In this document: piece by piece, positions 1-64,000 of the stretch | How positions within the stretch are numbered: position 1 is the first letter of the stretch | How the letters are laid out: each line of letters begins with the position of its first letter | Source of the DNA: Odiellus spinosus | Lineage: Eukaryota; Arthropoda; Arachnida; Opiliones; Phalangiidae | Length of the DNA: 64,000 nucleotides | Assembly: GCA_963920705.1 (NCBI GenBank) | Contig: OY987240.1 | Coordinates: forward strand, 3,540,501 to 3,604,500 | Direction: 5' to 3' | Notes under the pieces: generated by a model | Databases searched by the model: none | Told to the model about the DNA's origin: nothing | The model's input: the letters and a program-made list of their open reading frames with translations, nothing else | Translations under genes and position numbers: made by a program

Positions 1-1040
1 TCGAAAAACATCATTCGAAAAACATCATTCGAAAAACATCAATCGAAAAACATCAATCGAAAAACTTGATTCGAAAAACTTGATTCGAAAAACATCATTC
101 GAAAAACATCATTCGAAAAACTTGATTCGAAAAACATCATTCGAAAAACATGATTCAAAAAACCTGATTCGAAAAACATCATTCGAAAAACATGATTCGA
201 AAAACATCATTCGAAAAACATCATTCGAAAAACATCATTCGAAAAACATCATTCGAAAAACATCATTCGAAAAACATCATTCGAAAAACATCATTCGAAA
301 AACATCAATCGAAAAACATCAATCGAAAAACTTGATTCGAAAAACTTGATTCGAAAAACATGATTCGAAAAACATCATTCGAAAAACATGATTCGAAAAA
401 CATCATTCGAAAAACATCATACGAAAAACATCATTCGAAAAACATCATTCGAAAAACATCATTCGAAAATCATCATTCGAAAAACATCATTCGAAAAACA
501 TCATTCGAAAAACATCATTCGAAAAACATGATTCGAAAAACATCACTCGAAAAACATCATTCGAAAATCATTATTCGAAAAACATCATTCGAAAAACATC
601 ATTCGAAAAACATCATTCGAAAAACATCAATCGAAAAACTTGATTCGAAAAACTTGATTCGAAAAACATCATTCGAAAAACATCATTCGAAAAACATGAT
701 TCGAAAAACATCATTCGAAAAACATCATTCGAAAAACATGATTCGAAAAACATGATTCGAAAAACATCATTCGAAAAACATCAATCGAAAAACATCAATC
801 GAAAAACATCATTCGAAAAACATCATTCGAAAAACATACATCGAAAAACATCAATCGAAAAACTTGATTCGAAAAACTTGATTCGAAAAACATGATTCGA
901 AAAACATCATTCGAAAAACATGATTCGAAAAACATCATTCAAAAAACATCATTCGAAAAACATCATACGAAAAACATCATTCGAAAAACATCATTCGAAA
1001 AACTTGATTCGAAAAACATCATTCGAAAAACATGATTCGA

Positions 1041-2486
1041 CTAAACATGATTCGAAAAACATGATTCGACTAAACATGATTCGAAAAACATGATTCGAAA
1101 AACATGATTCGAAAAACTTGACTCGAAAAATATGATTCGAAAAACATCATTCAAAAAACATCATTCGAAATACATCATTCGAAAAACATAATTCGAAAAA
1201 TATGATTCGAAAAACATCATTCGAAAAACATGATTCGAAAAACATGATTCGAAAAACATGATTCGAAAAACATGATTCGAAAAACATGATTCGAAAAACA
1301 TCATTCGAAAAACATCATTCGAAAAACATCATTCGAAAAACATCATTCGAAAAACATCATTCGAAAAACATCATTCGAAAAACATCATTCGAAAAACATC
1401 AATCGAAAAACATCAATCGAAAAACTTGATTCGAAAAACTTGATTCGAAAAACATCATTCGAAAAACATCATTCGAAAAACTTGATTCGAAAAACATCAT
1501 TCGAAAAACATGATTCAAAAAACCTGATTCGAAAAACATCATTCGAAAAACATGATTCGAAAAACATCATTCGAAAAACATCATTCGAAAAACATCATTC
1601 GAAAAACATCATTCGAAAAACATCATTCGAAAAACATCATTCGAAAAACATCAATCGAAAAACTTGATTCGAAAAACTTGATTCGAAAAACATGATTCGA
1701 AAAACATCATTCGAAAAACATGATTCGAAAAACATCATTCGAAAAACATCATACGAAAAACATCATTCGAAAAACATCATTCGAAAAACATCATTCGAAA
1801 ATCATCATTCGAAAAACATCATTCGAAAAACATCATTCGAAAAACATCATTCGAAAAACATGATTCGAAAAACATCACTCGAAAAACATCATTCGAAAAA
1901 CATCAATCGAAAAACATCAATCGAAAAACATATATCGAAAAACATCATTCGAAAAACTTGATTCGAAAAACATCATTCGAAAAACATGATTCGACTAAAC
2001 ATGATTCGAAAAACATGATTCGACTAAACATGATTCGAAAAACATGATTCGAAAAACATGATTCGAAAAACTTGACTCGAAAAATATGATTCGAAAAACA
2101 TCATTCAAAAAACATCATTCGAAATACATCATTCGAAAAACATAATTCGAAAAATATGATTCGAAAAACATCATTCGAAAAACATGATTCGAAAAACATG
2201 ATTCGAAAAACATGATTCGAAAAACATGATTCGAAAAACATGATTCGAAAAACATGATTCGAAAAACATGATTCGAAAAACATCATTCGAAAAACATCAT
2301 TCGAAAAACATCATTCGAAAAACATCATTCGAAAAACATCATTCGAAAAACATCATTCGAAAAACATCAATCGAAAAACATCAATCGAAAAACTTGATTC
2401 GAAAAACTTGATTCGAAAAACATCATTCGAAAAACATCATTCGAAAAACTTGATTCGAAAAACATCATTCGAAAAACATGATTCGA
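1041..2486 (+). repeat. Region I HOR unit, 1,446 bp
   Basis: A complete two-part unit from one 15-bp pair to the homologous pair. It holds halves of 954 and 492 bp. 1,446 equals 103 x 14 plus 4, and the 4 extra bases are exactly the four 15-bp monomers inside. The D-runs following the two pairs have 5 (from 1229) and 7 (from 2183) monomers. Confidence 0.85.
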
Positions 2487-4072
2487 CTAAACATGATTCG
2501 AAAAACATGATTCGACTAAACATGATTCGAAAAACATGATTCGAAAAACATGATTCGAAAAACTTGACTCGAAAAATATGATTCGAAAAACATCATTCAA
2601 AAAACATCATTCGAAATACATCATTCGAAAAACATAATTCGAAAAATATGATTCGAAAAACATCATTCGAAAAACATGATTCGAAAAACATGATTCGAAA
2701 AACATGATTCGAAAAACATGATTCGAAAAACATCATTCGAAAAACATCATTCGAAAAACATCATTCGAAAAACATCATTCGAAAAACATCATTCGAAAAA
2801 CATCATTCGAAAAACATCATTCGAAAAACATCATTCGAAAAACATCAATCGAAAAACATCAATCGAAAAACTTGATTCGAAAAACTTGATTCGAAAAACA
2901 TCATTCGAAAAACATCATTCGAAAAACTTGATTCGAAAAACATCATTCGAAAAACATGATTCAAAAAACCTGATTCGAAAAACATCATTCGAAAAACATG
3001 ATTCGAAAAACATCATTCGAAAAACATCATTCGAAAAACATCATTCGAAAAACATCATTCGAAAAACATCATTCGAAAAACATCATTCGAAAAACATCAA
3101 TCGAAAAACTTGATTCGAAAAACTTGATTCGAAAAACATGATTCGAAAAACATCATTCGAAAAACATGATTCGAAAAACATCATTCGAAAAACATCATAC
3201 GAAAAACATCATTCGAAAAACATCATTCGAAAAACATCATTCGAAAATCATCATTCGAAAAACATCATTCGAAAAACATCATTCGAAAAACATCATTCGA
3301 AAAACATGATTCGAAAAACATCACTCGAAAAACATCATTCGAAAAACATCAATCGAAAAACATCAATCGAAAAACATATATCGAAAAACATCATTCGAAA
3401 AACTTGATTCGAAAAACATGATTCGAAAAACATGATTCGACTAAACATGATTCGAAAAACATGATTCGACTAAACATGATTCGAAAAACATGATTCGAAA
3501 AACATGATTCGAAAAACTTGACTCGAAAAATATGATTCGAAAAACATCATTCAAAAAACATCATTCGAAATACATCATTCGAAAAACATAATTCGAAAAA
3601 TATGATTCGAAAAACATCATTCGAAAAACATGATTCGAAAAACATGATTCGAAAAACATGATTCGAAAAACATGATTCGAAAAACATGATTCGAAAAACA
3701 TGATTCGAAAAACATCATTCGAAAAACATCATTCGAAAAACATCATTCGAAAAACATCATTCGAAAAACATCATTCGAAAAACATCATTCGAAAAACATC
3801 AATCGAAAAACATCAATCGAAAAACATGATTCGAAAAACATGATTCGAAAAACATGATTCGAAAAACATCATTCGAAAAACATCATTCGAAAAACATCAT
3901 TCGAAAAACATCATTCGTAAAACATCATTCGAAAAACATCATTCGAAAAACATCAATCGAAAAACATCAATCGAAAAACTTGATTCGAAAAACTTGATTC
4001 GAAAAACATCATTCGAAAAACATCATTCGAAAAACTTGATTCGAAAAACATCATTCGAAAAACATGATTCGA
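2487..4072 (+). repeat. Region I HOR unit, 1,586 bp, with internal duplication
   Basis: Same layout as the preceding unit but 140 bp longer. The difference is explained in the short half: 11 extra monomers at 3825-3978 (plus 154 bp) and a D-run of 6 instead of 7 (minus 14 bp). The long half is again 954 bp, with a D-run of 4 from 2675. The CATCATACG landmark at 3193 lies exactly 1,446 bp from that at 1747. Confidence 0.85.
3671..3978 (+). repeat. 154-bp tandem duplication (11 monomers x 2)
   Basis: Two adjacent blocks with the monomer order D D D H H H H H H Q Q: 3671-3824 and 3825-3978. They differ by one substitution that I can see, T for A at 3918, which makes CGTAAAAC. The homologous place in the other region I units has only one block, so this is a young, local event. 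Confidence 0.9.
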
Positions 4073-7029
4073 CTAAACATGATTCGAAAAACATGATTCG
4101 ACTAAACATGATTCGAAAAACATGATTCGAAAAACATGATTCGAAAAACTTGACTCGAAAAATATGATTCGAAAAACATCATTCAAAAAACATCATTCGA
4201 AATACATCATTCGAAAAACATAATTCGAAAAATATGATTCGAAAAACATCATTCGAAAAACATGATTCGAAAAACATGATTCGAAAAACATGATTCGAAA
4301 AACATGATTCGAAAAACATGATTCGAAAAACATGATTCGAAAAACATCATTCGAAAAACATCATTCGAAAAACATCATTCGAAAAACATCATTCGAAAAA
4401 CATCATTCGAAAAACATCAATCGAAAAACATCAATCGAAAAACTTGATTCGAAAAACTTGATTCGAAAAACATCATTCGAAAAACATCATTCGAAAAACT
4501 TGATTCGAAAAACATCATTCGAAAAACATGATTCAAAAAACCTGATTCGAAAAACATCATTCGAAAAACATGATTCGAAAAACATCATTCGAAAAACATC
4601 ATTCGAAAAACATCATTCGAAAAACATCATTCGAAAAACATCATTCGAAAAACATCATTCGAAAAACATCAATCGAAAAACTTGATTCGAAAAACTTGAT
4701 TCGAAAAACATGATTCGAAAAACATCATTCGAAAAACATGATTCGAAAAACATCATTCGAAAAACATCATACGAAAAACATCATTCGAAAAACATCATTC
4801 GAAAAACATCATTCGAAAATCATCATTCGAAAAACATCATTCGAAAAACATCATTCGAAAAACATCATTCGAAAAACATGATTCGAAAAACATCACTCGA
4901 AAAACATCATTCGAAAAACATCAATCGAAAAACATCAATCGAAAAACATATATCGAAAAACATCATTCGAAAAACTTGATTCGAAAAACATCATTCGAAA
5001 AACATGATTCGACTAAACATGATTCGAAAAACATGATTCGACTAAACATGATTCGAAAAACATGATTCGAAAAACATGATTCGAAAAACTTGACTCGAAA
5101 AATATGATTCGAAAAACATCATTCAAAAAACATCATTCGAAATACATCATTCGAAAAACATAATTCGAAAAATATGATTCGAAAAACATCATTCGAAAAA
5201 CATGATTCGAAAAACATGATTCGAAAAACATGATTCGAAAAACATGATTCGAAAAACATGATTCGAAAAACATCATTCGAAAAACATCATTCGAAAAACA
5301 TCATTCGAAAAACATCATTCGAAAAACATCATTCGAAAAACATCATTCGAAAAACATCAATCGAAAAACATCAATCGAAAAACTTGATTCGAAAAACTTG
5401 ATTCGAAAAACATCATTCGAAAAACTTGATTCGAAAAACATCATTCGAAAAACATGATTCAAAAAACCTGATTCGAAAAACATCATTCGAAAAACATCAT
5501 TCGAAAAACATCATTCGAAAAACATCATTCGAAAAACATCATTCGAAAAACATCATTCGAAAAACATCATTCGAAAAACATCATTCGAAAAACATCATTC
5601 GAAAAACATCAATCGAAAAACATCAATCGAAAAACTTGATTCGAAAAACTTGATTCGAAAAACATGATTCGAAAAACATCATTCGAAAAACATGATTCGA
5701 AAAACATCATTCGAAAAACATCATACGAAAAACATCATTCGAAAAACATCATTCGAAAAACATCATTCGAAAATCATCATTCGAAAAACATCATTCGAAA
5801 AACATCATTCGAAAAACATCATTCGAAAAACATGATTCGAAAAATATCACTCGAAAAACATCATTCGAAAAACATCAATCGAAAAACATCAATCGAAAAA
5901 CATCAATCGAAAAACATCATTCGAAAAACATCATTCGAAAAACTTGATTCGAAAAACATCATTCGAAAAACATGATTCGAAAAACATGATTCGAAAAACA
6001 AGATTCGAAAAACATGATTCGAAAAACATCATTCGAAAAACATCATTCGAAAAACTTGATTCGAAAAACATCATTCGAAAAACATCATTCGAAAAACATC
6101 TTTCGAAAAACATCATTCGATAAACATCATTCGAAAAACATCATTCGAAAAACATCATTCGAAAAACATCATTCTAAAACCATCATTCGAAAAACATCAT
6201 TCGAAAAACATCATTCGAAAAACATCATTCGAAAAACATCATTCGAAAAACATCATTCGAAAAACATCATTCGAAAAACATCATTCGAAAAACATCAATC
6301 GAAAAACTTGATTCGAAAAACATCATTCGAAAAACATCATTCGAAAAACATCATTCGAAAAACATCATTCGAAAAACATCATTCGAAAAACATCATTCGA
6401 AAAACATCATTCGAAAAACATCATTCGAAAAACATCATTCGAAAAACATCATTCGAAAAACATCATTCGAAAAACATCATTCGAAAAACGTCATTCGAAA
6501 ACATCAATCGAAAAACATCAATCGAAAAACTTGATTCGAAAAACTTGATTCGAAAAACATGATTCGAAAAACATCAATCGAAAAACATCAATCGAAAAAC
6601 ATCAATCGAAAAACATCATTCGAAAAACTTGTTTCGAAAAACATCATTCGAAAAACATGATTCGAAAAACATGATTCGAAAAACCTGATTCGAAAAACAT
6701 CATTCGAAAACCATCATTCGAAAAACATCATTCGAAAAACATGATTCGAAAAACATGATTCGAAAAACATGATTCGAAAAACATGATTCGAAAAACATCA
6801 TTCGAAAAACATCATTCGAAAAACATCAATCGAAAAACATCATTCGAAAAACATCAATCGAAAAACATCAATCGAAAAACTTGATTCGAAAAACATCATT
6901 CGAAAAACATCATTCGAAAAACATCATTCGAAAAACATCATTCGAAAAACATCATTCGAAAAACATCATTCGAAAAACATCATTCGAAAAACTTGATTCG
7001 AAAAACATCATTCGAAAAACATGATACGA
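4073..7029 (+). repeat. Region I HOR, third unit and altered tail
   Basis: The long half 4073-5012 is 940 bp, one monomer shorter than its homologues. The next interval, 5013 to 7030, is 2,017 bp instead of about 500: it repeats the long-half core (CATCATACG at 5719, 954 bp after 4765) and then enters an H-rich stretch at 6.0-6.6 kb. That stretch has a run of 12 H monomers from 6321 followed by CGTCATTCG and a 13-bp monomer near 6489. 2,017 equals 144 x 14 plus 2 minus 1, matching one 15-bp pair and one 13-bp monomer. Confidence 0.75.
6025..6180 (+). repeat. Rare-variant cluster shared with 29.07 and 30.70 kb
   Basis: A cluster of rare variants in fixed order: CATCTTTCG at 6097, then CGATAAAC, then CATTCTAAAA with its ATTCTA at 6171, 74 bp from the first landmark. 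The same three variants with the same 74-bp spacing occur at 29065 and 30697. The stretch 6025-6178 reads the same as 30625-30778. This looks like one ancestral block now found about 24.6 kb apart. Confidence 0.85.
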
Positions 7030-7722
7030 CTAAACATGATTCGAAAAACATGATTCGACTAAACATGATTCGAAAAACATGATTCGAAAAACATGATTCG
7101 AAAAACTTGACTCGAAAAATATGATTCGAAAAACATCATTCAAAAAACATCATTCGAAAAACATCATTCGAAAAAATACATTCGAAAAACATCATTCGAA
7201 AAACATCATTCGAAATACATCATTCGAAAAACATCATTCGAAAAAATACATTCGAAAAACATCATTCGAAATACATCATTCGAAAAACATTATTCGAAAA
7301 ACATCATTCGAAAAACATCATTCGAAAAACATCATTCGAAAAACATGATTCGAAAAACATCATTCGAAAAACATCATTCGAAAAACATCATTCGAAAAAC
7401 ATCATTCGAAACCCATCATTCGAAAAACCTCATTCGAAAAACATCATTCGAAAAACATCAATCGAAAAACATCATTCGAAAAACATCATTCGAAAAACAT
7501 CATTCGAAAAAATACATTCGAAAAACATCATTCGAAAAACATGATTCGAAATACATCATTCGAAAAACATTATTCGAAAAACATCATTCGAAAAACATCA
7601 TTCGAAAAACATCATTCGAAAAACATGATTCGAAAAACATGATTCGAAAAACATCATTCGAAAAACATCATTCGAAAAACATCATTCGAAAAACATGATT
7701 CGAAAAACATGATTCGAAAAAA

Positions 7723-8941
7723 ATGATTCGAAAAACATTATTCAAAAAACATCATTCGAAAAACATCATCCGAAAAACATCATTCGAAAAACATCATTCG
7801 AAAAACATCATTCGAAAAACATCATTCGAAAAACATCATTCGAAAAACATCATCCGAAAAACATCATTCGAAAAACATGATTCGAAAAACATCACTCGAA
7901 AAACATCATTCGAAAAACATCAATCGAAAAACATCAATCGAAAAACATCAATCGAAAAACATCATTCGAAAAACTTGATTCGAAAAACATCATTCGAAAA
8001 ACATGATTCGAAAAACATGATTCGAAAAACATGATTCGACTAAACATGATTCGAAAAACATGATTCGAAAAACATGATTCGAAAAACTTGACTCGAAAAA
8101 TATGATTCGAAAAACATCATTCAAAAAACATCATTCGAAATACATCATTCGAAAAACATAATTCGAAAAATATGATTCGAAAAACATCATTCGAAAAACA
8201 TGATTCGAAAAACATGATTCGAAAAACATGATTCGAAAAACATGATTCGAAAAACATGATTCGAAAAACATGATTCGAAAAACATGATTCGAAAAACATG
8301 ATTCGAAAAACATGATTCGAAAAACATGATTCGAAAAACATGATTCGAAAAACATGATTCGAAAAACATCATTCGAAAAACATCATTCGAAAAACATCAT
8401 TCGAAAAACATCATTCGAAAAACATCAATCGAAAAACATCATTCGAAAAACATCATTCGAAAAACATCATTCGAAAAAATACATTCGAAAAACATCATTC
8501 GAAAAACATCATTCGAAATACATCATTCGAAAAACATTATTCGAAAAACATCATTCGAAAAACATCATTCGAAAAAATACATTCGAAAAACATCATTCGA
8601 AAAACATCATTCGAAATACATCATTCGAAAAACATTATTCGAAAAACATCATTCGAAAAACATCATTCGAAAAACATCAATCGAAAAACATCATTCGAAA
8701 AACATCATTCGAAAAACATCATTCGAAAAAATACATTCGAAAAACATCATTCGAAAAACATGATTCGAAATACATCATTCGAAAAACATTATTCGAAAAA
8801 CATCATTCGAAAAACATCATTCGAAAAACATCATTCGAAAAACATGATTCGAAAAACATGATTCGAAAAACATCATTCGAAAAACATCATTCGAAAAACA
8901 TCATTCGAAAAACATGATTCGAAAAACATGATTCGAAAAAA
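7723..8941 (+). repeat. Region II HOR unit, 1,219 bp
   Basis: Unit from one AAATGATTCG landmark to the next. It contains one single 15-bp monomer (8040), the longest pure D-run of the window (8199-8366) and three AATACATTCG monomers. The next unit is 182 bp shorter, explained by two fewer D monomers and loss of an 11-monomer AATACATTCG block. Confidence 0.85.
8199..8366 (+). repeat. Run of 12 identical D monomers
   Basis: Twelve consecutive CATGATTCGAAAAA monomers without a substitution. Homologous runs in neighbouring HOR units have 4 to 11 copies. Because D lacks a stop codon on the minus strand in any frame, such runs give spurious minus-strand reading frames. Confidence 0.95.
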
Positions 8942-9978
8942 ATGATTCGAAAAACATTATTCAAAAAACATCATTCGAAAAACATCATCCGAAAAACATC
9001 ATTCGAAAAACATCATTCGAAAAACATCATTCGAAAAACATCATTCGAAAAACATCATTCGAAAAACATCATCCGAAAAACATCATTCGAAAAACATGAT
9101 TCGAAAAACATCACTCGAAAAACATCATTCGAAAAACATCAATCGAAAAACATCAATCGAAAAACATCAATCGAAAAACATCATTCGAAAAACTTGATTC
9201 GAAAAACATCATTCGAAAAACATGATTCGAAAAACATGATTCGAAAAACATGATTCGACTAAACATGATTCGAAAAACATGATTCGAAAAACATGATTCG
9301 AAAAACTTGACTCGAAAAATATGATTCGAAAAACATCATTCAAAAAACATCATTCGAAATACATCATTCGAAAAACATAATTCGAAAAATATGATTCGAA
9401 AAACATCATTCGAAAAACATGATTCGAAAAACATGATTCGAAAAACATGATTCGAAAAACATGATTCGAAAAACATGATTCGAAAAACATGATTCGAAAA
9501 ACATGATTCGAAAAACATGATTCGAAAAACATGATTCGAAAAACATGATTCGAAAAACATCATTCGAAAAACATCATTCGAAAAACATCATTCGAAAAAC
9601 ATCATTCGAAAAACATCAATCGAAAAACATCATTCGAAAAACATCATTCGAAAAACATCATTCGAAAAAATACATTCGAAAAACATCATTCGAAAAACAT
9701 CATTCGAAATACATCATTCGAAAAACATTATTCGAAAAACATCATTCGAAAAACATCATTCGAAAAAATACATTCGAAAAACATCATTCGAAAAACATCA
9801 TTCGAAATACATCATTCGAAAAACATTATTCGAAAAACATCATTCGAAAAACATCATTCGAAAAACATCATTCGAAAAACATGATTCGAAAAACATGATT
9901 CGAAAAACATCATTCGAAAAACATCATTCGAAAAACATCATTCGAAAAACATGATTCGAAAAACATGATTCGAAAAAA
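8942..9978 (+). repeat. Region II HOR unit, 1,037 bp
   Basis: Same order as the previous unit with one single 15-bp monomer at 9259 (74 x 14 plus 1). It has a D-run of 10 at 9418-9557 and two AATACATTCG monomers. Confidence 0.85.
9418..9557 (+). repeat. Run of 10 identical D monomers
   Basis: Ten consecutive D monomers at the position homologous to the 12-monomer run at 8199. Confidence 0.95.
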
Positions 9979-11521
9979 ATGATTCGAAAAACATTATTCA
10001 AAAAACATCATTCGAAAAACATCATCCGAAAAACATCATTCGAAAAACATCATTCGAAAAACATCATTCGAAAAACATCATTCGAAAAACATCATTCGAA
10101 AAACATCATCCGAAAAACATCATTCGAAAAACATGATTCGAAAAACATCACTCGAAAAACATCATTCGAAAAACATCAATCGAAAAACATCAATCGAAAA
10201 ACATCAATCGAAAAACATCATTCGAAAAACTTGATTCGAAAAACATCATTCGAAAAACATGATTCGAAAAACATGATTCGAAAAACATGATTCGACTAAA
10301 CATGATTCGAAAAACATGATTCGAAAAACATGATTCGAAAAACTTGACTCGAAAAATATGATTCGAAAAACATCATTCAAAAAACATCATTCGAAATACA
10401 TCATTCGAAAAACATAATTCGAAAAATATGATTCGAAAAACATCATTCGAAAAACATGATTCGAAAAACATGATTCGAAAAACATGATTCGAAAAACATG
10501 ATTCGAAAAACATGATTCGAAAAACATGATTCGAAAAACATGATTCGAAAAACATGATTCGAAAAACATGATTCGAAAAACATGATTCGAAAAACATGAT
10601 TCGAAAAACATCATTCGAAAAACATCATTCGAAAAACATCATTCGAAAAACATCATTCGAAAAACATCAATCGAAAAACATCATTCGAAAAACATCATTC
10701 GAAAAACATCATTCGAAAAAATACATTCGAAAAACATCATTCGAAAAACATCATTCGAAATACATCATTCGAAAAACATTATTCGAAAAACATCATTCGA
10801 AAAACATCATTCGAAAAACATCATTCGAAAAACATGATTCGAAAAACATCATTCGAAAAACATCATTCGAAAAACATCACTCGAAAAACATGATTCGACT
10901 AAACATGATTCGAAAAACATGATTCGACTAAACATGATTCGAAAAACATGATTCGAAAAACATGATTCGAAAAACATGATTCGAAAAACTTGACTCGAAA
11001 AATATGATTCGAAAAACATCATTCAAAAAACATCATTCGAAATACATCATTCGAAAAACATAATTCGAAAAATATGATTCGAAAAACATCATTCGAAAAA
11101 CATGATTCGAAAAACATGATTCGAAAAACATGATTCGAAAAACATGATTCGAAAAACATGATTCGAAAAACATCATTCGAAAAACATGATTCGAAAAACA
11201 TCATTCGAAAAACATCATTCGAAAAACATCATTCGAAAAACATCATTCGAAAAACATCATTCGAAAAACATCATTCGAAAAACATCAATCGAAAAACATC
11301 ATTCGAAAAACATCATTCGAAAAACATCATTCGAAAAAATACATTCGAAAAACATCATTCGAAAAACATCATTCGAAAAACATCATTCGAAAAACATCAT
11401 TCGAAAAACATCATTCGAAAAACATGATTCGAAAAACATCATTCGAAAAACATCATTCGAAAAACATCATTCGAAAAACATCATTCGAAAAACATGATTC
11501 GAAAAACATGATTCGAAAAAA
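9979..11521 (+). repeat. Region II HOR unit, 1,543 bp, compound
   Basis: Contains a single 15-bp monomer (10296), a D-run of 11 (10455-10608), and then a second composite module with a paired 15-bp form (10899, 10928). 1,543 equals 110 x 14 plus 3, the three extra bases being the three 15-bp monomers. The second module resembles those of region I, so this unit joins features of both families. Confidence 0.8.
10455..10608 (+). repeat. Run of 11 identical D monomers
   Basis: Eleven consecutive D monomers at the position homologous to the runs at 8199 and 9418. Confidence 0.95.
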
Positions 11522-12290
11522 ATGATTCGAAAAACATTATTCAAAAAACATCATTCGAAAAACATCATCCGAAAAACATCATTCGAAAAACATCATTCGA
11601 AAAACATCATCCGAAAAACATCATTCGAAAAACATGATTCGAAAACATCACTCGAAAAACATCATTCGAAAAACATCAATCGAAAAACATCAATCGAAAA
11701 ACATCAATCGAAAAACATCATTCGAAAAACTTGACTCGAAAAATATGATTCGAAAAACATCATTCAAAAAACATCATTCGAAATACATCATTCGAAAAAC
11801 ATAATTCGAAAAATATGATTCGAAAAACATCATTCGAAAAACATGATTCGAAAAACATGATTCGAAAAACATGATTCGAAAAACATGATTCGAAAAACAT
11901 GATTCGAAAAACATGATTCGAAAAACATCATTCGAAAAACATCATTCGAAAAACATCATTCGAAAAACATCATTCGAAAAACATCATTCGAAAAACATCA
12001 TTCGAAAAACATCATTCGAAAAACATCAATCGAAAAACATCATTCGAAAAACATCATTCGAAAAACATCATTCGAAAAAATACATTCGAAAAACATCATT
12101 CGAAAAACATCATTCGAAATACATCATTCGAAAAACATTATTCGAAAAACATCATTCGAAAAACATCATTCGAAAAACATCATTCGAAAAACATGATTCG
12201 AAAAACATCATGCGAAAAACATCATTCGAAAAACATCATTCGAAAAACATCATTCGAAAAACATCATTCGAAAAACATGATTCGAAAAAA
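11522..12290 (+). repeat. Region II HOR unit, 769 bp, shortened
   Basis: The shortest region II unit, 55 x 14 minus 1, the missing base being a 13-bp CGAAAACATC monomer near 11,642. Its composite module (CTTGACTCG at 11730) follows an H monomer directly and has lost the 15-bp GACTAAA monomers. The D-run from 11842 has 6 copies. Confidence 0.8.
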
Positions 12291-14110
12291 ATGATTCGAA
12301 AAACATTATTCAAAAAACATCATTCGAAAAACATCATCCGAAAAACATCATTCGAAAAACATCATTCGAAAAACATCATTCGAAAAACATCATCCGAAAA
12401 ACATCATTCGAAAAACATGATTCGAAAACATCACTCGAAAAACATCATTCGAAAAACATCAATCGAAAAACATCAATCGAAAAACATCAATCGAAAAACA
12501 TCATTCGAAAAACTTGATTCGAAAAACATCATTCGAAAAACATGATTCGAAAAACATGATTCGAAAAACATCATTCGAAAAACATCAATCGAAAAACATC
12601 AATCGAAAAACATCAATCGAAAAACATCATTCGAAAAACTTTATTCGAAAAACATCATTCGAAAAACATGATTCGAAAAACATGATTCTAAAAACATGAT
12701 TCGAAAACCATCATTCGAAAAACATCATTCGAAAAACATCATTCGAAAAACATCATTCGAAAAACATCATTCGAAAAACATCATTCGAAAAACATCATTC
12801 GAAAAACATCATTCGAAAAACATCATTCGAAAAACATCATTCGAAAAACATCAATCGAAAAACTTGATTCGAAAAACATCATTCGAAAAACATCATTCGA
12901 AAAACATCATTCGAAAAACATCATTCGAAAAACATCTTTCGAAAAACATCATTCGAAAAACATCATTCGAAAAACATCATTCGAAAATCATCATTCGAAA
13001 AACATCATTCGAAAAACATCAATCGAAAAACATCAATCGAAAAACTTGATTCGAAAAACTTGATTCGAAAAACATGATTCGAAAAACATCAATCGAAAAA
13101 CATCAATCGAAAAACATCAATCGAAAAACATCATTCGAAAAACTTGTTTCGAAAAACATCATTCGAAAAACATCATTCGAAAAACATCATTCGAAAAACA
13201 TCATTCGAAAAACATCATTCGAAAAACATCATTCGAAAAACATCATTCGAAAAACATCAATCGAAAAACATCATTCGAAAAACATCATTCGAAAAACATC
13301 ATTCGAAAAAATACATTCGAAAAACATCATTCGAAAAACATCATTCGAAATACATCATTCGAAAAACATTATTCGAAAAACATAATTCGAAAAACATCAT
13401 TCGAAAAACATCATTCGAAAAACATGATTCGAAAAACATCATTCGAAAAACATCATTCGAAAAACATCATTCGACTAAACATGATTCGAAAAACATGATT
13501 CGACTAAACATGATTCGAAAAACATGATTCGAAAAACATGATTCGAAAAACTTGACTCGAAAAATATGATTCGAAAAACATCATTCAAAAAACATCATTC
13601 GAAATACATCATTCGAAAAACATAATTCGAAAAATATGATTCGAAAAACATCATTCGAAAAACATGATTCGAAAAACATGATTCGAAAAACATGATTCGA
13701 AAAACATGATTCGAAAAACATGATTCGAAAAACATGATTCGAAAAACATCATTCGAAAAACATCATTCGAAAAACATCATTCGAAAAACATCATTCGAAA
13801 AACATCATTCGAAAAACATCATTCGAAAAACATCATTCGAAAAACATCAATCGAAAAACATCATTCGAAAAACATCATTCGAAAAACATCATTCGAAAAA
13901 ATACATTCGAAAAACATCATTCGAAAAACATCATTCGAAATACATCATTCGAAAAACATTATTCGAAAAACATCATTCGAAAATATCATTCGAAAAACAT
14001 CATTCGAAAAACATGATTCGAAAAACATCATTCGAAAAACATCATTCGAAAAACATCATTCGAAAAACATCATTCGAAAAACATGATTCGAAAAACATGA
14101 TTCGAAAAAA
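12291..14110 (+). repeat. Region II HOR unit, 1,820 bp, enlarged by H/Q/L-rich block
   Basis: Exactly 130 x 14: two 15-bp monomers (13475, 13504) are offset by 13-bp monomers near 12,423 and 13,981. The stretch 12.55-13.15 kb is an H-rich block with Q, L and CTTGTTTCG monomers of the type that dominates region III. It ends with the last composite module of the window (CTTGACTCG at 13551). Confidence 0.75.
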
Positions 14111-16531: not shown

Positions 16532-16969
16532 ATGATTCGAAAAACATTATTCAAAAAACATCATTCGAAAAACATCATCCGAAAAACATCATTCGAAAAA
16601 CATCATTCGAAAAACATCATTCGAAAAACATCATTCGAAAAACATCATTCGAAAAACATCATCCGAAAAACATCATTCGAAAAACATGATTCGAAAAACA
16701 TCACTCGAAAAACATCATTCGAAAAACATCAATCGAAAAACATCAATCGAAAAACATCAATCGAAAAACATCATTCGAAAAACTTGATTCGAAAAACATC
16801 ATTCGAAAAACATGATTCGAAAAACATGATTCGAAAAACATCATTCGAAAAACATCAATCGAAAAACATCAATCGAAAAACATCAATCGAAAAACATCAT
16901 TCGAAAAACTTGATTCGAAAAACATCATTCGAAAAACATGATTCGAAAAACATGATTCGAAAAACATGA
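16532..16969 (+). repeat. Last, partial region II unit
   Basis: Begins with the AAATGATTCG/ACATTATTCA landmark and repeats the first 438 bp of the unit at 15440, then passes into the AACCATC-type H block of region III. Confidence 0.75.
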
Positions 16970-20770: not shown

Positions 20771-20941
20771 ACATCATTCGAAAAACATCATTCGAAAAAC
20801 ATCATTCGAAAAACTTGATTCGAAAAACATCATTCGAAAAACATCATTCGAAAAACATCATTCGAAAAACATCATTCGAAAAACATCAATCGAAAAACAT
20901 CAATCGAAAAACATCAATCGAAAAACATCATTCGAAAAACT

Positions 20942-28969: not shown

Positions 28970-28980
28970 CATTCGAAAAA
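28970..28980 (+). repeat. 11-bp monomer CATTCGAAAAA
   Basis: A monomer that has lost one CAT/ATC triplet from CATCATT. The same deletion occurs at 30602, 57350 and 59207. Confidence 0.9.
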
Positions 28981-49900: not shown

Positions 49901-49993
49901 ATTCGAAAAACGACATTCGAAAAACATCATTCGAAAAACATCATTCGAAAAACATCATTCAAAAACATCATTCGAAAAACATCATTCGAAAAA
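46931..49993 (+). repeat. Region VIII, first part: GACATTCG family
   Basis: No gene. GACATTCG-type monomers recur near 47,099, 47,389, 47,689, 48,498, 48,779, 49,198, 49,489, 49,799 and 49,909. D monomers are scarce, so plus-strand frames stay open for long stretches. A 13-bp GATTCAAAAAC followed one monomer later by CGAAGAAC marks sub-units (near 46,940 and 49,034). The stretch 47.9-48.7 kb is the older relative of 52.5-53.3 and 56.1-56.9 kb. Confidence 0.8.
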
Positions 49994-52900
49994 CATCAAT
50001 CGAAAAACATCAATCGAAAAACTTGATTCGAAAAACTTGATTCGAAAAACATCATTCGAAAAACATCATTCGAAAAACATCATTCGAAAAACATCATTCG
50101 AAAAACATCATTCGAAAAACATCATTCGAAAAACATCATTCGAAAAACATGATTCAAAAACATCATTCGAAGAACATCATTCGAAAAACATCATTCGAAA
50201 AACATCATTCGAAAAATATCAATCGAAAAACTTGATTCGAAAAACATCATTCGAAAAACATCATTCGAAAAACATCATTCGAAAAACATCATTCGAAAAA
50301 CGACATTCGAAAAACATCATTCGAAAAACATCATTCGAAAAACATCATTCAAAAAACATCATTCGAAAAACATCATTCGAAAAACATCAATCGAAAAACA
50401 TCAATCGAAAAACTTGATTCGAAAAACTTGATTCGAAAAACATCATTCGAAAAACATCATTCGAAAAACATCATTCGAAAAACATCATTCGAAAAACATC
50501 ATTCGAAAAACATCAATCGAAAAACTTGATTCGAAAAACATCATTCGAAAAACATCATTCGAAAAACATCATTCGAAAAACATCATTCGAAAAACGACAT
50601 TCGAAAAACATCATTCGAAAAACATCATTCGAAAAACATCATTCAAAAAACATCACTCGAAATACATCATTCGAAAAACATCATTCGAAAAACATCAATC
50701 GAAAAACATCAATCGAAAAACTTGAGTCGAAAAACATCAATCGAAAAACTTGAGTCGAAAAACTTGATTCGAAAAACATCATTCGAAAAACATCATTCGA
50801 AAAACATCATTCGAAAAACATCATTCGAAAAACATCATTCGAAAAACATCAATCGAAAAACTCGATTCGAAAAACATCATTCGAAAAACATCATTCGAAA
50901 AACATCATTCGAAAAACATCATTCGAAAAACGACAATCGGAAAACATCATTCGAAAAACATCATTCGAAAAACATCATTCAAAAAACATCATTCGAAAAA
51001 CATCATTCGAAAAACATCATTCGAAAAACATCATTCGAAAAACATCATTCGAAAAACCTCAATCGAAAAACTTGATTCGAAAAACATCATTCGAAAAACA
51101 TCATTCGAAAAACATCATTCGAAAAACGACATTCGAAAAACATCATTCGAAAAACATCATTCGAAAAACATCATTCAAAAACATCATTCGAAAAACATCA
51201 TTCGAAAAACATCAATCGAAAAACATCAATCGAAAAACTTGATTCGAAAAACTTGATTCGAAAAACATCATTCGAAAAACATCATTCGAAAAACATCATT
51301 CGAAAAACATCATTCGAAAAACATCATTCGAAAAACATCATTCGAAAAACATCATTCGAAAAACATCATTCGAAAAACATGATTCAAAAACATCATTCGA
51401 AGAACATCATTCGAAAAACATCATTCGAAAAACATCATTCGAAAAACATCATTCGAAAAATATCAATCGAAAAACTTGATTCGAAAAACATCATTCGAAA
51501 AACATCATTCGAAAAACATCATTCGAAAAACATCATTCGAAAAACGACATTCGAAAAACATCATTCGAAAAACATCATTCGAAAAACATCATTCAAAAAA
51601 CATCATTCGAAAAACATCATTCGAAAAACATCAATCGAAAAACATCAATCGAAAAACTTGATTCGAAAAACTTGATTCGAAAAACATCATTCGAAAAACA
51701 TCATTCGAAAAACATCATTCGAAAAACATCATTCGAAAAACATCATTCGAAAAACATCAATCGAAAAACTTGATTCGAAAAACATCATTCGAAAAACATC
51801 ATTCGAAAAACATCATTCGAAAAACATCATTCGAAAAACATCATTCGAAAAACGACATTCGAAAAACATCATTCGAAAAACATCATTCGAAAAACATCAT
51901 TCAAAAAACATCACTCGAAATACATCATTCGAAAAACATCATTCGAAAAACATCAATCGAAAAACATCAATCGAAAAACTTGATTCGAAAAACTTGATTC
52001 GAAAAACATCATTCGAAAAACATCATTCGAAAAACATCATTCGAAAAACATCATTCGAAAAACATCATTCGAAAAACATCAATCGAAAAACTTGATTCGA
52101 AAAACATCATTCGAAAAACATCATTCGAAAAACATCATTCGAAAAACATCATTCGAAAAACATCATTCGAAAAACATCAATCGAAAAACTCGATTCGAAA
52201 AACATCATTCGAAAAACATCATTCGAAAAACATCATTCGAAAAACATCATTCGAAAAACGACAATCGGAAAACATCATTCGAAAAACATCATTCGAAAAA
52301 CATCATTCAAAAAACATCATTCGAAAAACATCATTCGAAAAACATCATTCGAAAAACATCATTCGAAAAACATCATTCGAAAATCATCATTCGAAAAACA
52401 TCACTCGAAAAACATCATTCGAAAAACTTGATTCGAAAAACATCATTCGAAAAACATCATTCGAAAAAATTCATTCGAAAATCATCATTCGAAAAACATC
52501 ACTCGAAAAAAATCATTCGAAAAACTTGATTCGAAAAACATCATTCGAAAAACATCATTCGAAAAACATCAATCGAAAAACTTGATTCGAAAAACTTGAT
52601 TCGAAAAACATCATTCGAAAAACATGATTCGAAAAACATCATTCGAAAAACATCATTCGAAAAACATCAATCGAAAAACATCATTCGAAAAACATCATTC
52701 GAAAAACATCATTCGAAAAACTTGATTCGAAAAACATCATTCGAAAAACATCATTCGAAAAACATCATTCGAAAAACATCATTCGAAAACCATCAATCGA
52801 AAAACTTGATTCGAAAAACTTGATTCGAAAAACATCATTCGAAAAACATGATTCGAAAAACATCATTCGAAAAACATCATTCGAAAAACATCAATCGAAA

Positions 52901-53629
52901 AACATCAATCGAAAAACATCAATCGAAAAACATCATTCGAAAAACTTGATTCGAAAAACTTGATTCGAAAATTATCATTCGAAAAACATGATTCGAAAAA
53001 CATCATTTGAAAAACATCATTCGAAAAACATCAATCGAAAAACATCAATCGAAAAACATCATTCGAAAAACGACATTCGAAAAACATCATTCGAAAAACA
53101 TCATTCGAAAAACATCATTCAAAAAACATCATTCGAAAAACATTATTCGAAAAACATCAATCGAAAAACATCAATCGAAAAACTTGATTCGAAAAACTTG
53201 ATTCGAAAAACATCATTCGAAAAACATCATTCGAAAAACATCATTCGAAAAACATCATTCGAAAAACATCATTCGAAAAACCTCAATCGAAAAACTTGAT
53301 TCGAAAAACATCATTCGAAAAACATCATTCGAAAAACATCATTCGAAAAACGACATTCGAAAAACATCATTCGAAAAACATCATTCGAAAAACATCATTC
53401 AAAAACATCATTCGAAAAACATCATTCGAAAAACATCAATCGAAAAACATCAATCGAAAAACTTGATTCGAAAAACTTGATTCGAAAAACATCATTCGAA
53501 AAACATCATTCGAAAAACATCATTCGAAAAACATCATTCGAAAAACATCATTCGAAAAACATCATTCGAAAAACATCATTCGAAAATCATCATTCGAAAA
53601 ACATCACTCGAAAAACATCATTCGAAAAA
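49994..53629 (+). repeat. 3.6-kb tandem duplication, copy 1 (3,636 bp)
   Basis: Landmarks match copy 2 at offset 3,636 up to about 50,735 and at 3,608 after it: GATTCAAAAAC 50154/53790, AATATCAATCG 50217/53853, CTCGATTCG 50861/54469, CCTCAATCG 51057/54665, CGAAAATTATC 52971/56579. The only length difference is 28 bp, a duplicated Q plus CTTGAGTCG pair at 50,707-50,762. The related blocks near 47.5 and 49.6 kb have one pair, so copy 1 gained it. I saw no other difference at the landmarks compared. Confidence 0.92.
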
Positions 53630-56600
53630 CATCAATCGAAAAACATCAATCGAAAAACTTGATTCGAAAAACTTGATTCGAAAAACATCATTCGAAAAAC
53701 ATCATTCGAAAAACATCATTCGAAAAACATCATTCGAAAAACATCATTCGAAAAACATCATTCGAAAAACATCATTCGAAAAACATGATTCAAAAACATC
53801 ATTCGAAGAACATCATTCGAAAAACATCATTCGAAAAACATCATTCGAAAAATATCAATCGAAAAACTTGATTCGAAAAACATCATTCGAAAAACATCAT
53901 TCGAAAAACATCATTCGAAAAACATCATTCGAAAAACGACATTCGAAAAACATCATTCGAAAAACATCATTCGAAAAACATCATTCAAAAAACATCATTC
54001 GAAAAACATCATTCGAAAAACATCAATCGAAAAACATCAATCGAAAAACTTGATTCGAAAAACTTGATTCGAAAAACATCATTCGAAAAACATCATTCGA
54101 AAAACATCATTCGAAAAACATCATTCGAAAAACATCATTCGAAAAACATCAATCGAAAAACTTGATTCGAAAAACATCATTCGAAAAACATCATTCGAAA
54201 AACATCATTCGAAAAACATCATTCGAAAAACGACATTCGAAAAACATCATTCGAAAAACATCATTCGAAAAACATCATTCAAAAAACATCACTCGAAATA
54301 CATCATTCGAAAAACATCATTCGAAAAACATCAATCGAAAAACATCAATCGAAAAACTTGAGTCGAAAAACTTGATTCGAAAAACATCATTCGAAAAACA
54401 TCATTCGAAAAACATCATTCGAAAAACATCATTCGAAAAACATCATTCGAAAAACATCAATCGAAAAACTCGATTCGAAAAACATCATTCGAAAAACATC
54501 ATTCGAAAAACATCATTCGAAAAACATCATTCGAAAAACGACAATCGGAAAACATCATTCGAAAAACATCATTCGAAAAACATCATTCAAAAAACATCAT
54601 TCGAAAAACATCATTCGAAAAACATCATTCGAAAAACATCATTCGAAAAACATCATTCGAAAAACCTCAATCGAAAAACTTGATTCGAAAAACATCATTC
54701 GAAAAACATCATTCGAAAAACATCATTCGAAAAACGACATTCGAAAAACATCATTCGAAAAACATCATTCGAAAAACATCATTCAAAAACATCATTCGAA
54801 AAACATCATTCGAAAAACATCAATCGAAAAACATCAATCGAAAAACTTGATTCGAAAAACTTGATTCGAAAAACATCATTCGAAAAACATCATTCGAAAA
54901 ACATCATTCGAAAAACATCATTCGAAAAACATCATTCGAAAAACATCATTCGAAAAACATCATTCGAAAAACATCATTCGAAAAACATGATTCAAAAACA
55001 TCATTCGAAGAACATCATTCGAAAAACATCATTCGAAAAACATCATTCGAAAAACATCATTCGAAAAATATCAATCGAAAAACTTGATTCGAAAAACATC
55101 ATTCGAAAAACATCATTCGAAAAACATCATTCGAAAAACATCATTCGAAAAACGACATTCGAAAAACATCATTCGAAAAACATCATTCGAAAAACATCAT
55201 TCAAAAAACATCATTCGAAAAACATCATTCGAAAAACATCAATCGAAAAACATCAATCGAAAAACTTGATTCGAAAAACTTGATTCGAAAAACATCATTC
55301 GAAAAACATCATTCGAAAAACATCATTCGAAAAACATCATTCGAAAAACATCATTCGAAAAACATCAATCGAAAAACTTGATTCGAAAAACATCATTCGA
55401 AAAACATCATTCGAAAAACATCATTCGAAAAACATCATTCGAAAAACATCATTCGAAAAACGACATTCGAAAAACATCATTCGAAAAACATCATTCGAAA
55501 AACATCATTCAAAAAACATCACTCGAAATACATCATTCGAAAAACATCATTCGAAAAACATCAATCGAAAAACATCAATCGAAAAACTTGATTCGAAAAA
55601 CTTGATTCGAAAAACATCATTCGAAAAACATCATTCGAAAAACATCATTCGAAAAACATCATTCGAAAAACATCATTCGAAAAACATCAATCGAAAAACT
55701 TGATTCGAAAAACATCATTCGAAAAACATCATTCGAAAAACATCATTCGAAAAACATCATTCGAAAAACATCATTCGAAAAACATCAATCGAAAAACTCG
55801 ATTCGAAAAACATCATTCGAAAAACATCATTCGAAAAACATCATTCGAAAAACATCATTCGAAAAACGACAATCGGAAAACATCATTCGAAAAACATCAT
55901 TCGAAAAACATCATTCAAAAAACATCATTCGAAAAACATCATTCGAAAAACATCATTCGAAAAACATCATTCGAAAAACATCATTCGAAAATCATCATTC
56001 GAAAAACATCACTCGAAAAACATCATTCGAAAAACTTGATTCGAAAAACATCATTCGAAAAACATCATTCGAAAAAATTCATTCGAAAATCATCATTCGA
56101 AAAACATCACTCGAAAAAAATCATTCGAAAAACTTGATTCGAAAAACATCATTCGAAAAACATCATTCGAAAAACATCAATCGAAAAACTTGATTCGAAA
56201 AACTTGATTCGAAAAACATCATTCGAAAAACATGATTCGAAAAACATCATTCGAAAAACATCATTCGAAAAACATCAATCGAAAAACATCATTCGAAAAA
56301 CATCATTCGAAAAACATCATTCGAAAAACTTGATTCGAAAAACATCATTCGAAAAACATCATTCGAAAAACATCATTCGAAAAACATCATTCGAAAACCA
56401 TCAATCGAAAAACTTGATTCGAAAAACTTGATTCGAAAAACATCATTCGAAAAACATGATTCGAAAAACATCATTCGAAAAACATCATTCGAAAAACATC
56501 AATCGAAAAACATCAATCGAAAAACATCAATCGAAAAACATCATTCGAAAAACTTGATTCGAAAAACTTGATTCGAAAATTATCATTCGAAAAACATGAT

Positions 56601-57237
56601 TCGAAAAACATCATTTGAAAAACATCATTCGAAAAACATCAATCGAAAAACATCAATCGAAAAACATCATTCGAAAAACGACATTCGAAAAACATCATTC
56701 GAAAAACATCATTCGAAAAACATCATTCAAAAAACATCATTCGAAAAACATTATTCGAAAAACATCAATCGAAAAACATCAATCGAAAAACTTGATTCGA
56801 AAAACTTGATTCGAAAAACATCATTCGAAAAACATCATTCGAAAAACATCATTCGAAAAACATCATTCGAAAAACATCATTCGAAAAACCTCAATCGAAA
56901 AACTTGATTCGAAAAACATCATTCGAAAAACATCATTCGAAAAACATCATTCGAAAAACGACATTCGAAAAACATCATTCGAAAAACATCATTCGAAAAA
57001 CATCATTCAAAAACATCATTCGAAAAACATCATTCGAAAAACATCAATCGAAAAACATCAATCGAAAAACTTGATTCGAAAAACTTGATTCGAAAAACAT
57101 CATTCGAAAAACATCATTCGAAAAACATCATTCGAAAAACATCATTCGAAAAACATCATTCGAAAAACATCATTCGAAAAACATCATTCGAAAATCATCA
57201 TTCGAAAAACATCACTCGAAAAACATCATTCGAAAAA
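53630..57237 (+). repeat. 3.6-kb tandem duplication, copy 2 (3,608 bp)
   Basis: Directly abuts copy 1. The right boundary is where an L monomer (57238) replaces the Q found at 53630. The variant CGAAAATTATC at 56579 is shared with copy 1 but not with the older relative near 48.4 kb, and the CAATTG of that relative (near 48,222) is CAATCG in both copies. This supports a recent origin. Confidence 0.92.
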
Positions 57238-57940
57238 CTTGATTCGAAAAACATCATTCGAAAAACATCATTCGAAAAACATCAATCGAAAAACTTGATT
57301 CGAAAAACTTGATTCGAAAAACATCATTCGAAAAACATGATTCGAAAAACATTCGAAAAACATCATTCGAAAAACATCAATCGAAAAACATCATTCGAAA
57401 AAAATCATTCGAAAAACATCATTCGAAAAACTTGATTCGAAAAACATCATTCGAAAAAAATCATTCGAAAAACATCATTCGAAAAACATCATTCAAAAAC
57501 ATCATTCGAAAAACATCATTCGAAAAACATCAATCGAAAAACATCAATCGAAAAACTTGATTCGAAAAACTTGATTCGAAAAACATCATTCGAAAAACAT
57601 CATTCGAAAACCATCATTCGAAAAACATCATTCGAAAAACCTCATTCGAAAAACATCATTCGAAAAACATCATTCGAAAAACATCATTCGAAAAACATCA
57701 TTCGAAAAACATCATTCGAAAAACATCAATCGAAAAACCTGATTCGAAAAACATCATTCGAAAAACATCATTCGAAAAACATCATTCGAAAAACATCATT
57801 TGAAAAACATCATTCGAAAAACATCAATCGAAAAACATCAATCGAAAAACTTGATTCGAAAAACTTGATTCGAAAAACATGATTCGAAAAACATCATTCG
57901 AAAAACATCATTCGAAAAACATCATTCGAAAAACATCATT

Positions 57941-58514
57941 CGAAAATCATCATTCGAAAAACATCAATCGAAAAACTTGATTCGAAAAACATCATTCGAA
58001 AAACATGATTCGAAAAACATCATTCGAAAAACATCATTCGAAAAACATCAATCGAAAAACATCAATCGAAAAACATCAATCGAAAAACATCATTCGAAAA
58101 ACTTGTTTCGAAAAACATCATTCGAAAAACATGATTCAAAAAACATGATTCGAAAAACCTGATTCGAAAAACATCATTCGAAAACCATCATTCGAAAAAC
58201 ATGATTCGAAAAACATGATTCGAAAAACATGATTCGAAAAACATCATTCGAAAAACATCATTCGAAAAACATCATTCGAAAAACATCATTCGAAAAACAT
58301 CATTCGAAAAACATCATTCAAAAAACATCATTCGAAAAACATCAATCGAAAAACATCAATCGAAAAACATCATTCGAAAAACTTGTTTCGTAAAACATCA
58401 TTCGAAAAACATGATTCGAAAAACATGATTCGAAAAACATGATTCGAAAAACATCATTCGAAAACCATCATTCGAAAAACATCATTCGAAAAACATCATT
58501 CGAAAAACATCATT
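57941..58514 (+). repeat. 574-bp tandem duplication, copy 1
   Basis: 41 monomers from CGAAAATCATC to its repeat. CTTGTTTCGTAAAAC at 58382 recurs at 58956. Copy 1 has a private CATGATTCA (CpG to CpA) near 58,137. Confidence 0.88.
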
Positions 58515-59088
58515 CGAAAATCATCATTCGAAAAACATCAATCGAAAAACTTGATTCGAAAAACATCATTCGAAAAACATGATTCGAAAAACATCATTCG
58601 AAAAACATCATTCGAAAAACATCAATCGAAAAACATCAATCGAAAAACATCAATCGAAAAACATCATTCGAAAAACTTGTTTCGAAAAACATCATTCGAA
58701 AAACATGATTCGAAAAACATGATTCGAAAAACCTGATTCGAAAAACATCATTCGAAAACCATCATTCGAAAAACATGATTCGAAAAACATGATTCGAAAA
58801 ACATGATTCGAAAAACATCATTCGAAAAACATCATTCGAAAAACATCATTCGAAAAACATCATTCGAAAAACATCATTCGAAAAACATCATTCAAAAAAC
58901 ATCATTCGAAAAACATCAATCGAAAAACATCAATCGAAAAACATCATTCGAAAAACTTGTTTCGTAAAACATCATTCGAAAAACATGATTCGAAAAACAT
59001 GATTCGAAAAACATGATTCGAAAAACATCATTCGAAAACCATCATTCGAAAAACATCATTCAAAAAACATCATTCGAAAAACATCATT
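58515..59088 (+). repeat. 574-bp tandem duplication, copy 2
   Basis: Directly abuts copy 1. It has CATGATTCG where copy 1 has the CpA change, and a private CATCATTCA near 59,052. Confidence 0.88.
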
Positions 59089-61835: not shown

Positions 61836-64000
61836 TTGATTCGAAAAACATCATTCGAAAAACATCATTCGAAAAACATCAGTCGAAAAACATCATTCGA
61901 AAAACATCATTCGAAAAACATCATTCGAAAATCATCATTCGAAAAACATCACTCGAAAAACATCATTCGAAAAACATCATTCGAAAAACTTGATTCGAAA
62001 AACATCATTCGAAAAACATCATTCGAAAAACATCATTCGAAAAACATGATTCGAAAAACATCATTCGAAAAACATCAATCGAAAAACTTGATTCGAAAAA
62101 CTTGATTCGAAAAACATCATTCGAAAAACATGATTCGAAAAACATCATTCGAAAAACATCATTCGAAAAACATCAATCGAAAAACATCAATCGAAAAACA
62201 TCAATCGAAAAACTTGATTCGAAAAACATCATTCGAAAAACATCATTCGAAAAACATCATTCGAAAAACATCATTCGAAAAACATCATTCGAAAATCATC
62301 ATTCGAAAAACATCACTCGAAAAACATCATTCGAAAAACTTGATTCGAAAAACATCATTCGAAAAACATCATTCGAAAAACATCATTCGAAAAACATGAT
62401 TCGAAAAACATGATTCGAAAAACATCATTCGAAAAACATCAATCGAAAAACTTGATTCGAAAAACTTGATTCGAAAAACATCATTCGAAAAACATGACTC
62501 GAAAAACATCATTCGAAAAACATCATTCGAAAAACATCAATCGAAAAACATCAATCGAAAAACATCAATCGAAAAACTTGATTCGAAAAACATCATTCGA
62601 AAAACATGATTCGAAAAACATCATTCGAAAAACATCATTAGAAAAACATCAATCGAAAAACATCAATCGAAAAACATCAATCGAAAAACATTTCGAAAAA
62701 CTTGATTCGAAAAACTTGATTCGAAAAACATCATTCGAAAAACATGATTCGAAAAACATCATTTGAAAAACATCATTCGAAAAACATCATTCGAAAAACA
62801 TGATTCGAAAAACATCATTCGAAAAACATCATTCGAAAAACATCATTCGAAAAACATCATTCGAAAAACATCATTCGAAAAACAACAATCGAAAAACTTG
62901 ATTCGAAAAACATCATTCGAAAAACATCATTCGAAAAACATCATTCGAAAAACATCATTCGAAAAACATCATTCGAAAAACATCATTCGAAAAACATCAA
63001 TCGAAAAACATCAATCGAAAAACTTGATTCGAAAAACTTGATTCGAAAAACATGATTCGAAAAACATCATTCGAAAAACATCATTCGAAAAACATCATTC
63101 GAAAAACATCATTCGAAAATCATCATTCGAAAAACATCACTCGAAAAACATCATTCGAAAAACATCATTCGAAAAACATCATTCGAAAAACATCAATCGA
63201 AAAACTTGATTCGAAAAACATCATTCGAAAAACATCATTCGAAAAACATCATTCGAAAAACATCATTCGAAAAACATCATTCGAAAAACATCATTCGAAA
63301 AACATCATTCGAAAAACATCAATCGAAAAACATCAATCGAAAAACAACAATCGAAAAACATCATTCGAAAAACTTGATTCGAAAAACATCATTCGAAAAA
63401 CATGATTCGAAAAACATGATTCGAAAAACATGATTCGAAAAACATCATTCGAAAAACATCAATCGAAAAACTTGATTCGAAAAACTTGATTCGAAAAACA
63501 TCATTCGAAAAACATGATTCGAAAAACATCATTCGAAAAACATCATTCGAAAAACATCAATCGAAAAACATCAATCGAAAAACATCAATCGAAAAACATC
63601 ATTCGAAAAACTTGATTCGAAAAACATCATTCGAAAAACATGATTCGAAAAACATCATTCGAAAAACCTGATTCGAAAAACATTATTCGAAAACCATCAT
63701 TCGAAAAACATCATTCGAAAAACATGATTCGAAAAACATGATTCGAAAAACATGATTCGAAAAACATCATTCGAAAAACATCAATCGAAAAACTTGATTC
63801 GAAAAACTTGATTCGAAAAACATCACTCGAAAAACATGATTCGAAAAACATCATTCGAAAAACATCATTCGAAAAACATCAATCGAAAAAAAACAATCGA
63901 AAAACATCAATCGAAAAACATCAATCGAAAAACTTGATTCGTAAAACATCATTCGAAAAACATGATTCGAAAAACATGATTCGAAAAACATGATTCGAAA
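61836..64000 (+). repeat. Region XI: return of the region VI family
   Basis: No gene. D and Q Q Q blocks return, with CGAAAATCATC/CATCACTCG, CCTGATTCG, AACCATC and finally the CTTGATTCGTAAAAC landmark at 63933. The block pair at 63486/63808 matches that at 38607/38915 except for one extra monomer. A 12-bp monomer CATTTCGAAAAA is at 62689-62700. The array continues beyond the window. Confidence 0.8.

Follow-up and report, generated by a model that had tools for sequence, protein, structure and literature searches.

Introduction

Several arrays of 'simple sequence' show higher-order organisation according to excerpts of PMC2588610, which give higher-order repeats of 3,360, 3,600 and 5,630 bp for human GAATG arrays of ~100 kb; similarly, excerpts of PMC4022460 put the HSat2 unit at 1.77 kb and the DYZ1 unit at 3.6 kb. 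Here we describe a stretch of 64,000 nucleotides from the arachnid Odiellus spinosus (assembly GCA_963920705.1, contig OY987240.1, positions 3,540,501 to 3,604,500 of the forward strand), hereafter the window, which consists entirely of a 14-bp satellite. An earlier note on this DNA had read it as an unbroken array with higher-order repeats (HORs) at several levels, and had thought this unusual on so short a monomer; a centromeric or heterochromatic role it had marked as inference. The judgement 'unusual' does not hold: kilobase HORs have already been published for the 5-bp GAATG/CATTC satellites, as excerpts of PMC2588610 and PMC4022460 record, and thus multi-kilobase HORs on a very short monomer were already known. 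The array is a simple-sequence satellite with higher-order repeats, HSat3-like in its architecture, and in all likelihood it evolves by repeated out-of-register tandem duplication of blocks, accompanied by small gains and losses of monomers.

Results

A single array of 14-bp monomers

Tandem Repeats Finder (TRF), with its longest period set to 500, reported the whole window (1-64000) as a single row of period 14, with 4573.4 copies, 93% matches and 0% indels. Wrap-around alignment counted 4,574 monomers; 4,512 are 14 bp long, none exceeds 15 bp, and the window end truncates the final one. There are 107 distinct monomer sequences, and four types, TCGAAAAACATCAT and its ATGAT, ATCAA and CTTGAT variants, make up 3,819 of the 4,574; mean identity of the 14-bp monomers to the consensus, TCGAAAAACATCAT, is 95.2%. 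AAAAAC occurs 4,240 times and GTTTTT not once, so that orientation is single throughout, GC content in 2-kb steps stays between 0.278 and 0.289, and neither the wrap-around alignment nor the composition revealed an inserted element or an N within the 64 kb. The TRF row, the monomer lengths and the orientation motif together define positions 1..64000 (+) as one satellite array without foreign insertion: a long, uninterrupted tandem array (64 kb, one TRF row) of a short monomer, much as the earlier note had described it. An Rfam scan at gathering threshold gave no matches in the window, and an ARAGORN scan of it no tRNA genes.

The order of the monomers is far from random

The higher-order structure of the array is real. 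Exact monomer-level repeats that are 20 or more monomers long number 133, the largest reaching 207 monomers (2,898 bp, at 50727 and 54335); such repeats were absent from all ten order-shuffled arrays and from nine of ten order-2 Markov arrays, the tenth having ten of them, the longest of 29 monomers. A Viterbi lag trace (lags of 15-700 monomers, with settings of our choosing) placed 3,445 of the 4,574 monomers within same-lag segments, and 2,938 of these in segments of at least 25 monomers. The same trace placed none in five shuffled and five order-1 arrays, and 0, 0, 0.7, 2.9 and 0.7% of monomers in five order-2 arrays. Observed lags span 27 (378 bp), 41 (574 bp), 68-140 (0.95-1.96 kb), 215 (3.0 kb) and 258 (3.6 kb) monomers, with further block lags of 327 (4.6 kb), 480 (6.7 kb) and 585 (8.2 kb) monomers.

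Periodicity above 14 bp is thus present (lags of 27-585 monomers), and the multi-level structure that the earlier note described on the 14-bp monomer is borne out by the exact repeats and the same-lag segments. Its families exist, but the size range that it gave them (0.8-3.6 kb) was too narrow for lags that run from 378 bp to 8.2 kb. The structure resolves into about eleven local domains (F1-F11, with units of 0.38-3.6 kb), whose limits we drew from the lag trace and from landmark words. By these landmarks each domain holds 2-8 copies, so that 'HOR families' fits poorly if the term is taken, as for alpha satellite, to mean one unit repeated in long runs. Sixteen of the 29 landmark words that we picked occur 2-6 times; shorter ones, scattered across several domains, occur up to 21 times.

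Copies are young, local and nearly identical

Fourteen copy pairs, chosen by us and in some cases overlapping, have 98.8-100% base identity over aligned monomers, gaps aside, as against the 95.2% of monomers to their consensus; the kilobase units are more alike than the monomers within them. The minimum comes from the F9 pair and includes a badly aligned end. These pairs contain 32 gaps, 23 of them of one monomer, with some lying at alignment ends or counted twice through overlapping pairs. The domains are young local tandem duplications, not a deep alpha-satellite-like array.

Identical informative 10-monomer words (those occurring at most 60 times) form 5,660 pairs, of which 1,895 lie less than 200 monomers apart and eight less than 20 apart; the counts drop overall with distance, and the peak among 10-monomer bins up to 719 is at 70-79 (339 pairs). 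In unfitted simulations (five step laws of three runs each, 15 runs in all), steps of 1-5 monomers gave 33-76 word pairs per run, as against the thousands observed, and the four laws that reach hundreds of monomers gave hundreds to thousands per run, mostly long-range. At lags of 60-119 the 1,002 observed pairs exceed those of any simulated run (0-903).

The domains along the window

All domains lie on the forward strand (+), and the lag trace underlies each of them, supplemented by landmarks and pair alignment in F1, F2 and F8, by pair alignment in F3, F4, F6, F7, F9 and F11, and by exact repeats and pair alignment in F10. F1 (1..5836) has lags of 103 and 112 monomers (1.45 and 1.57 kb) and of 215 monomers (3.0 kb), with the landmark qj.bemj present six times; two of its copy pairs show 99.85% and 99.93% base identity, gaps aside. 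The three copies of F2 (7434..10600) are spaced by 87 and 74 monomers (1.2 and 1.04 kb), one copy pair being free of substitutions over 85 monomers but carrying a two-monomer gap, and another being 99.5% identical; runs of the ATGAT monomer in F2 (7434-10600) are 12 and 10 long between otherwise identical copies. F3 (10953..14422) and F4 (15081..17054) each consist of two copies, at main lags of 130 (1.82 kb) and 78 monomers (1.09 kb) respectively, together with smaller pieces at other lags. F5 (17517..18272) is a duplication of 27 monomers (378 bp); F6 (19841..21784) has lags of 77 and 73 monomers (1.02-1.08 kb), and F7 (22317..27758) lags of 84 and 139-141 monomers (1.96 kb).

F8 (31459..41746) is nested in structure: units of 75-78, 99-104 and 124 monomers are contained in a block of 478-481 monomers (6.7 kb) that is present twice, the landmark NNNNDo occurring eight times. 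The two 6.7 kb blocks are 99.87% identical, gaps aside, with five one-monomer gaps. The unit sizes (75-78, 99-104, 124) step by ~24-25 monomers, and a weak sub-period of 22-24 monomers is seen in F8 (z ~3, for 130 lags against an order-1 null); a ~24-monomer sub-period is a possible third level of organisation there. F9 (41747..43368) has a lag of 73 monomers (1.02 kb). F10 (47231..57229) contains a 3.6 kb block of 258-260 monomers twice and, at lags of 327 and 585, an incomplete copy that has diverged further; the two 3.6 kb copies align over 258 monomers free of substitutions but are set apart by a two-monomer indel, seen as two gaps, while a third gap sits at the alignment end. Finally, F11 (57898..59059) is a duplication of 41 monomers (574 bp).

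Monomer variants are also distributed unevenly. The 15-bp variant TCGACTAAACATGAT occurs 20 times, confined to ~1.0-13.5 kb (1037-13500), and 16 of the 20 copies form pairs spaced two monomers apart; the share of ATGAT monomers per 4-kb step ranges between 28% (at 8-12 kb) and 2% (at 48-56 kb). CpG is at 3.98 times the expectation from base composition, almost one per monomer across 1-64000; this excess may reflect little germline methylation or fast homogenisation.

Relations between domains

We compared 14 regions (F1-F11 and the stretches G, H and I, where H is ~43.5-46.6 kb) by their shared informative 8-monomer words, giving 91 pairs that were set against 40 order-2 arrays. Clearly above all null arrays were F2-F3 with 26 shared words (null maximum 10), F2-F4 with 28 (7) and F3-F4 with 24 (9), as well as F6-H with 13 (7), F7-H with 15 (8), H-F11 with 16 (5) and F9-H with 10 (7). 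F1-F3, F4-F6, F6-F7 and F10-I exceeded the null maximum narrowly, where chance alone would give about two such excesses among 91 pairs; most of the remaining pairs share no more words than the null mean.

Related older segments are thus found interrupted: F8 and F9 lie between F6/F7 and H, and F10 lies between H and F11. F8 and F10 are flanked by related segments and may have expanded between them, as in the layered-expansion picture of centromeric arrays (outlined in excerpts of PMC11034957). We also considered a single ancestral unit for the whole window. One F8 unit of 77 monomers was aligned to the full set of 4,574; its score of 1,779 exceeded those of five order-2 arrays (925-1,010) and of five shuffles (300-362). 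The gain fell mostly in F8 itself (blocks 11-14), with a small gain or a loss in blocks 0-4 and 17-19; the alignment did not show descent of all domains from one ancestor, and this candidate was set aside.

Discussion

The window shows directly that blocks have been duplicated, how large they are, and that the copies are highly identical and local. We propose that blocks, mostly of ~1 kb or larger, would have been duplicated out of register in tandem, presumably with deletion too, either by unequal sister-chromatid exchange or by break-induced replication that resumed in the wrong register, and that smaller changes, adding or removing one to a few monomers, would have been superimposed on this. 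Both unequal exchange and break-induced replication are discussed for satellite arrays in the parts of PMC11034957 and PMC8122249 that we draw on; we infer a pathway of one kind or the other, the window fitting both.

Several points weigh against this account. A quarter of the array (1,129 monomers, 25%, in twelve stretches) has no assigned copy within 700 monomers, the largest such stretch being 43369-46699 (238 monomers). Resemblance to the data is about equal for kilobase-only steps and for mixed laws with short steps among them (log-uniform 1-500, exponential with mean 100). What the simulations rule out is therefore slippage by itself, and they decide nothing beyond that; their event and mutation numbers were arbitrary, and different ones were used for the slippage law. 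As to the small gains and losses, in 21 of the 32 gaps the missing monomers match an adjacent one, but 61% of the monomers in the array sit beside an identical one, and the figure is therefore no proof of slippage. Lastly, some of the copies, chiefly those of the 3.6 kb block, may be false duplications of the assembly.

That part of the higher-order pattern is such an assembly artefact, by false duplication or by collapse, we nonetheless hold to be improbable. The pairs that most invite it are those free of substitutions, namely the F10 pair over its 258 aligned monomers and one F2 pair over 85, but all 14 pairs differ by at least one substitution or gap, and the F10 pair does so by its two-monomer indel. 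Runs of A between G and C are moreover near-uniform in length (A5 4,145 times, A4 88 times, A6 and A7 never, A8 once, with 58 monomers of one common variant yielding the A4 run), and homopolymer errors therefore look rare. A protein-coding repeat is suggested by the commonest monomer being open in all three forward frames, by stop-to-stop frames of up to 367 codons forward and 83 reverse, and by all 148 of the 148 frames of at least 100 codons being forward. However, 23 of 100 order-shuffled and 18 of 50 order-2 arrays had a forward frame equally long or longer, so that the open frames follow from monomer composition; judged by open frames, coding is accordingly rejected, its likelihood being vanishingly small.

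The array could, instead, be a functional centromere, in which the conserved core TCGAAAAAC and the self-complementary TTCGAA at monomer junctions form a protein-recruiting binding site or a non-B DNA feature. This is unlikely in our view, though some points speak for it: the satellite is long, pure and in one orientation, TTCGAA occurs 3,677 times as against 12.9 expected from base composition, and variants are spread unevenly across the 14 monomer positions (chi-square 72.9, p 2e-10, 274 distinct-context events). Yet a palindrome in any monomer would be repeated thousands of times anyway, and the distinct-context events are non-independent, since one variant spreads into new contexts via duplication; the uneven spread is thus no proof of selection on monomer positions. 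Six single-strand DNA folds (five stretches, one of them on both strands) gave z of -0.60 to -2.76, but only two of the six fell below -2. Curvature by phased A-tracts was ruled out: at 14-bp spacing the tracts are out of helical phase and their bends cancel around the helix (mean resultant 0-0.083). We infer rather that this is an ordinary heterochromatin-type satellite, without a sequence-specific role, that turns over by block duplication.

A step of 73-78 monomers (1.02-1.09 kb) recurs in F2, F4, F6, F8 and F9, raising the question of whether block duplications favour it, which we consider doubtful. Many monomer words are shared between F2 and F4, and few between F8 or F9 and other domains. 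If the preference is true, it would point to a physical step in copying or exchange, rather than to one inherited old unit; were a ~1 kb step to hold in further parts of the array and among relatives, it would place a constraint on how satellite copying is modelled. Without a general ~1 kb step, this is an ordinary, well-resolved satellite array. In either case, with about a hundred monomer types in fixed order, single duplication events can be read and their sizes measured, which makes the window a clean example of simple-satellite turnover.

Comparison with known systems

The monomer was not found as a satellite in open-licence full texts (twelve 14-letter strings, covering some rotations and the ATGAT variant, on either strand); the sole match was isolated, inside a longer non-repetitive sequence. 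Phrases naming a '14-bp' satellite led to nothing on this one, as far as the search entries show, and a 39-base degenerate pattern had no exact matches in viral or in bacterial and archaeal contigs, collections that hold no eukaryote genomes and may omit records from the source genome.

Higher-order units from a short monomer are also known in carrot CentDc, where, according to an extract of PMC8259371, a unit of ~159 bp typically comprises four monomers of 39-40 bp, as against 27 to 480 monomers per unit here. In the beetle Chnootriba argus the pericentromeric (TTAAAA)n likewise combines a very short monomer with an abundant array but, unlike our window, gave its authors no indication of higher-order repeats in the sequences analysed, in so far as an extract of PMC6780895 reports. 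Alpha-satellite HORs resemble the present ones in that block copies are far more alike than the monomers inside them (PMC8122249, in extract); there, however, 171-bp monomers are ~70% alike within the unit, whereas here 14-bp monomers are ~95% identical to the consensus. Nor is one unit repeated many times in register, as in an alpha-satellite-type array: the unit length shifts along the window, with the few copies per domain (2-8) given above.

The nearest parallel is human satellite III, (GAATG/CATTC)n, at Yq11.1 (3.36 and 5.63 kb) and Yq12/DYZ1 (3.6 kb), which likewise has a short monomer, arrays of tens of kb and kilobase units, going by extracts of PMC2588610 and PMC4022460. Our array is not a member of human HSat2/3, its consensus being TCGAAAAACATCAT and not CATTC/GAATG: its 14-bp monomer is unrelated in sequence to their 5-bp one. 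Its organisation differs as well, with several short local domains within 64 kb, whereas one 3.6 kb unit extends, by the same extracts, over the whole sequenced Yq12 array.
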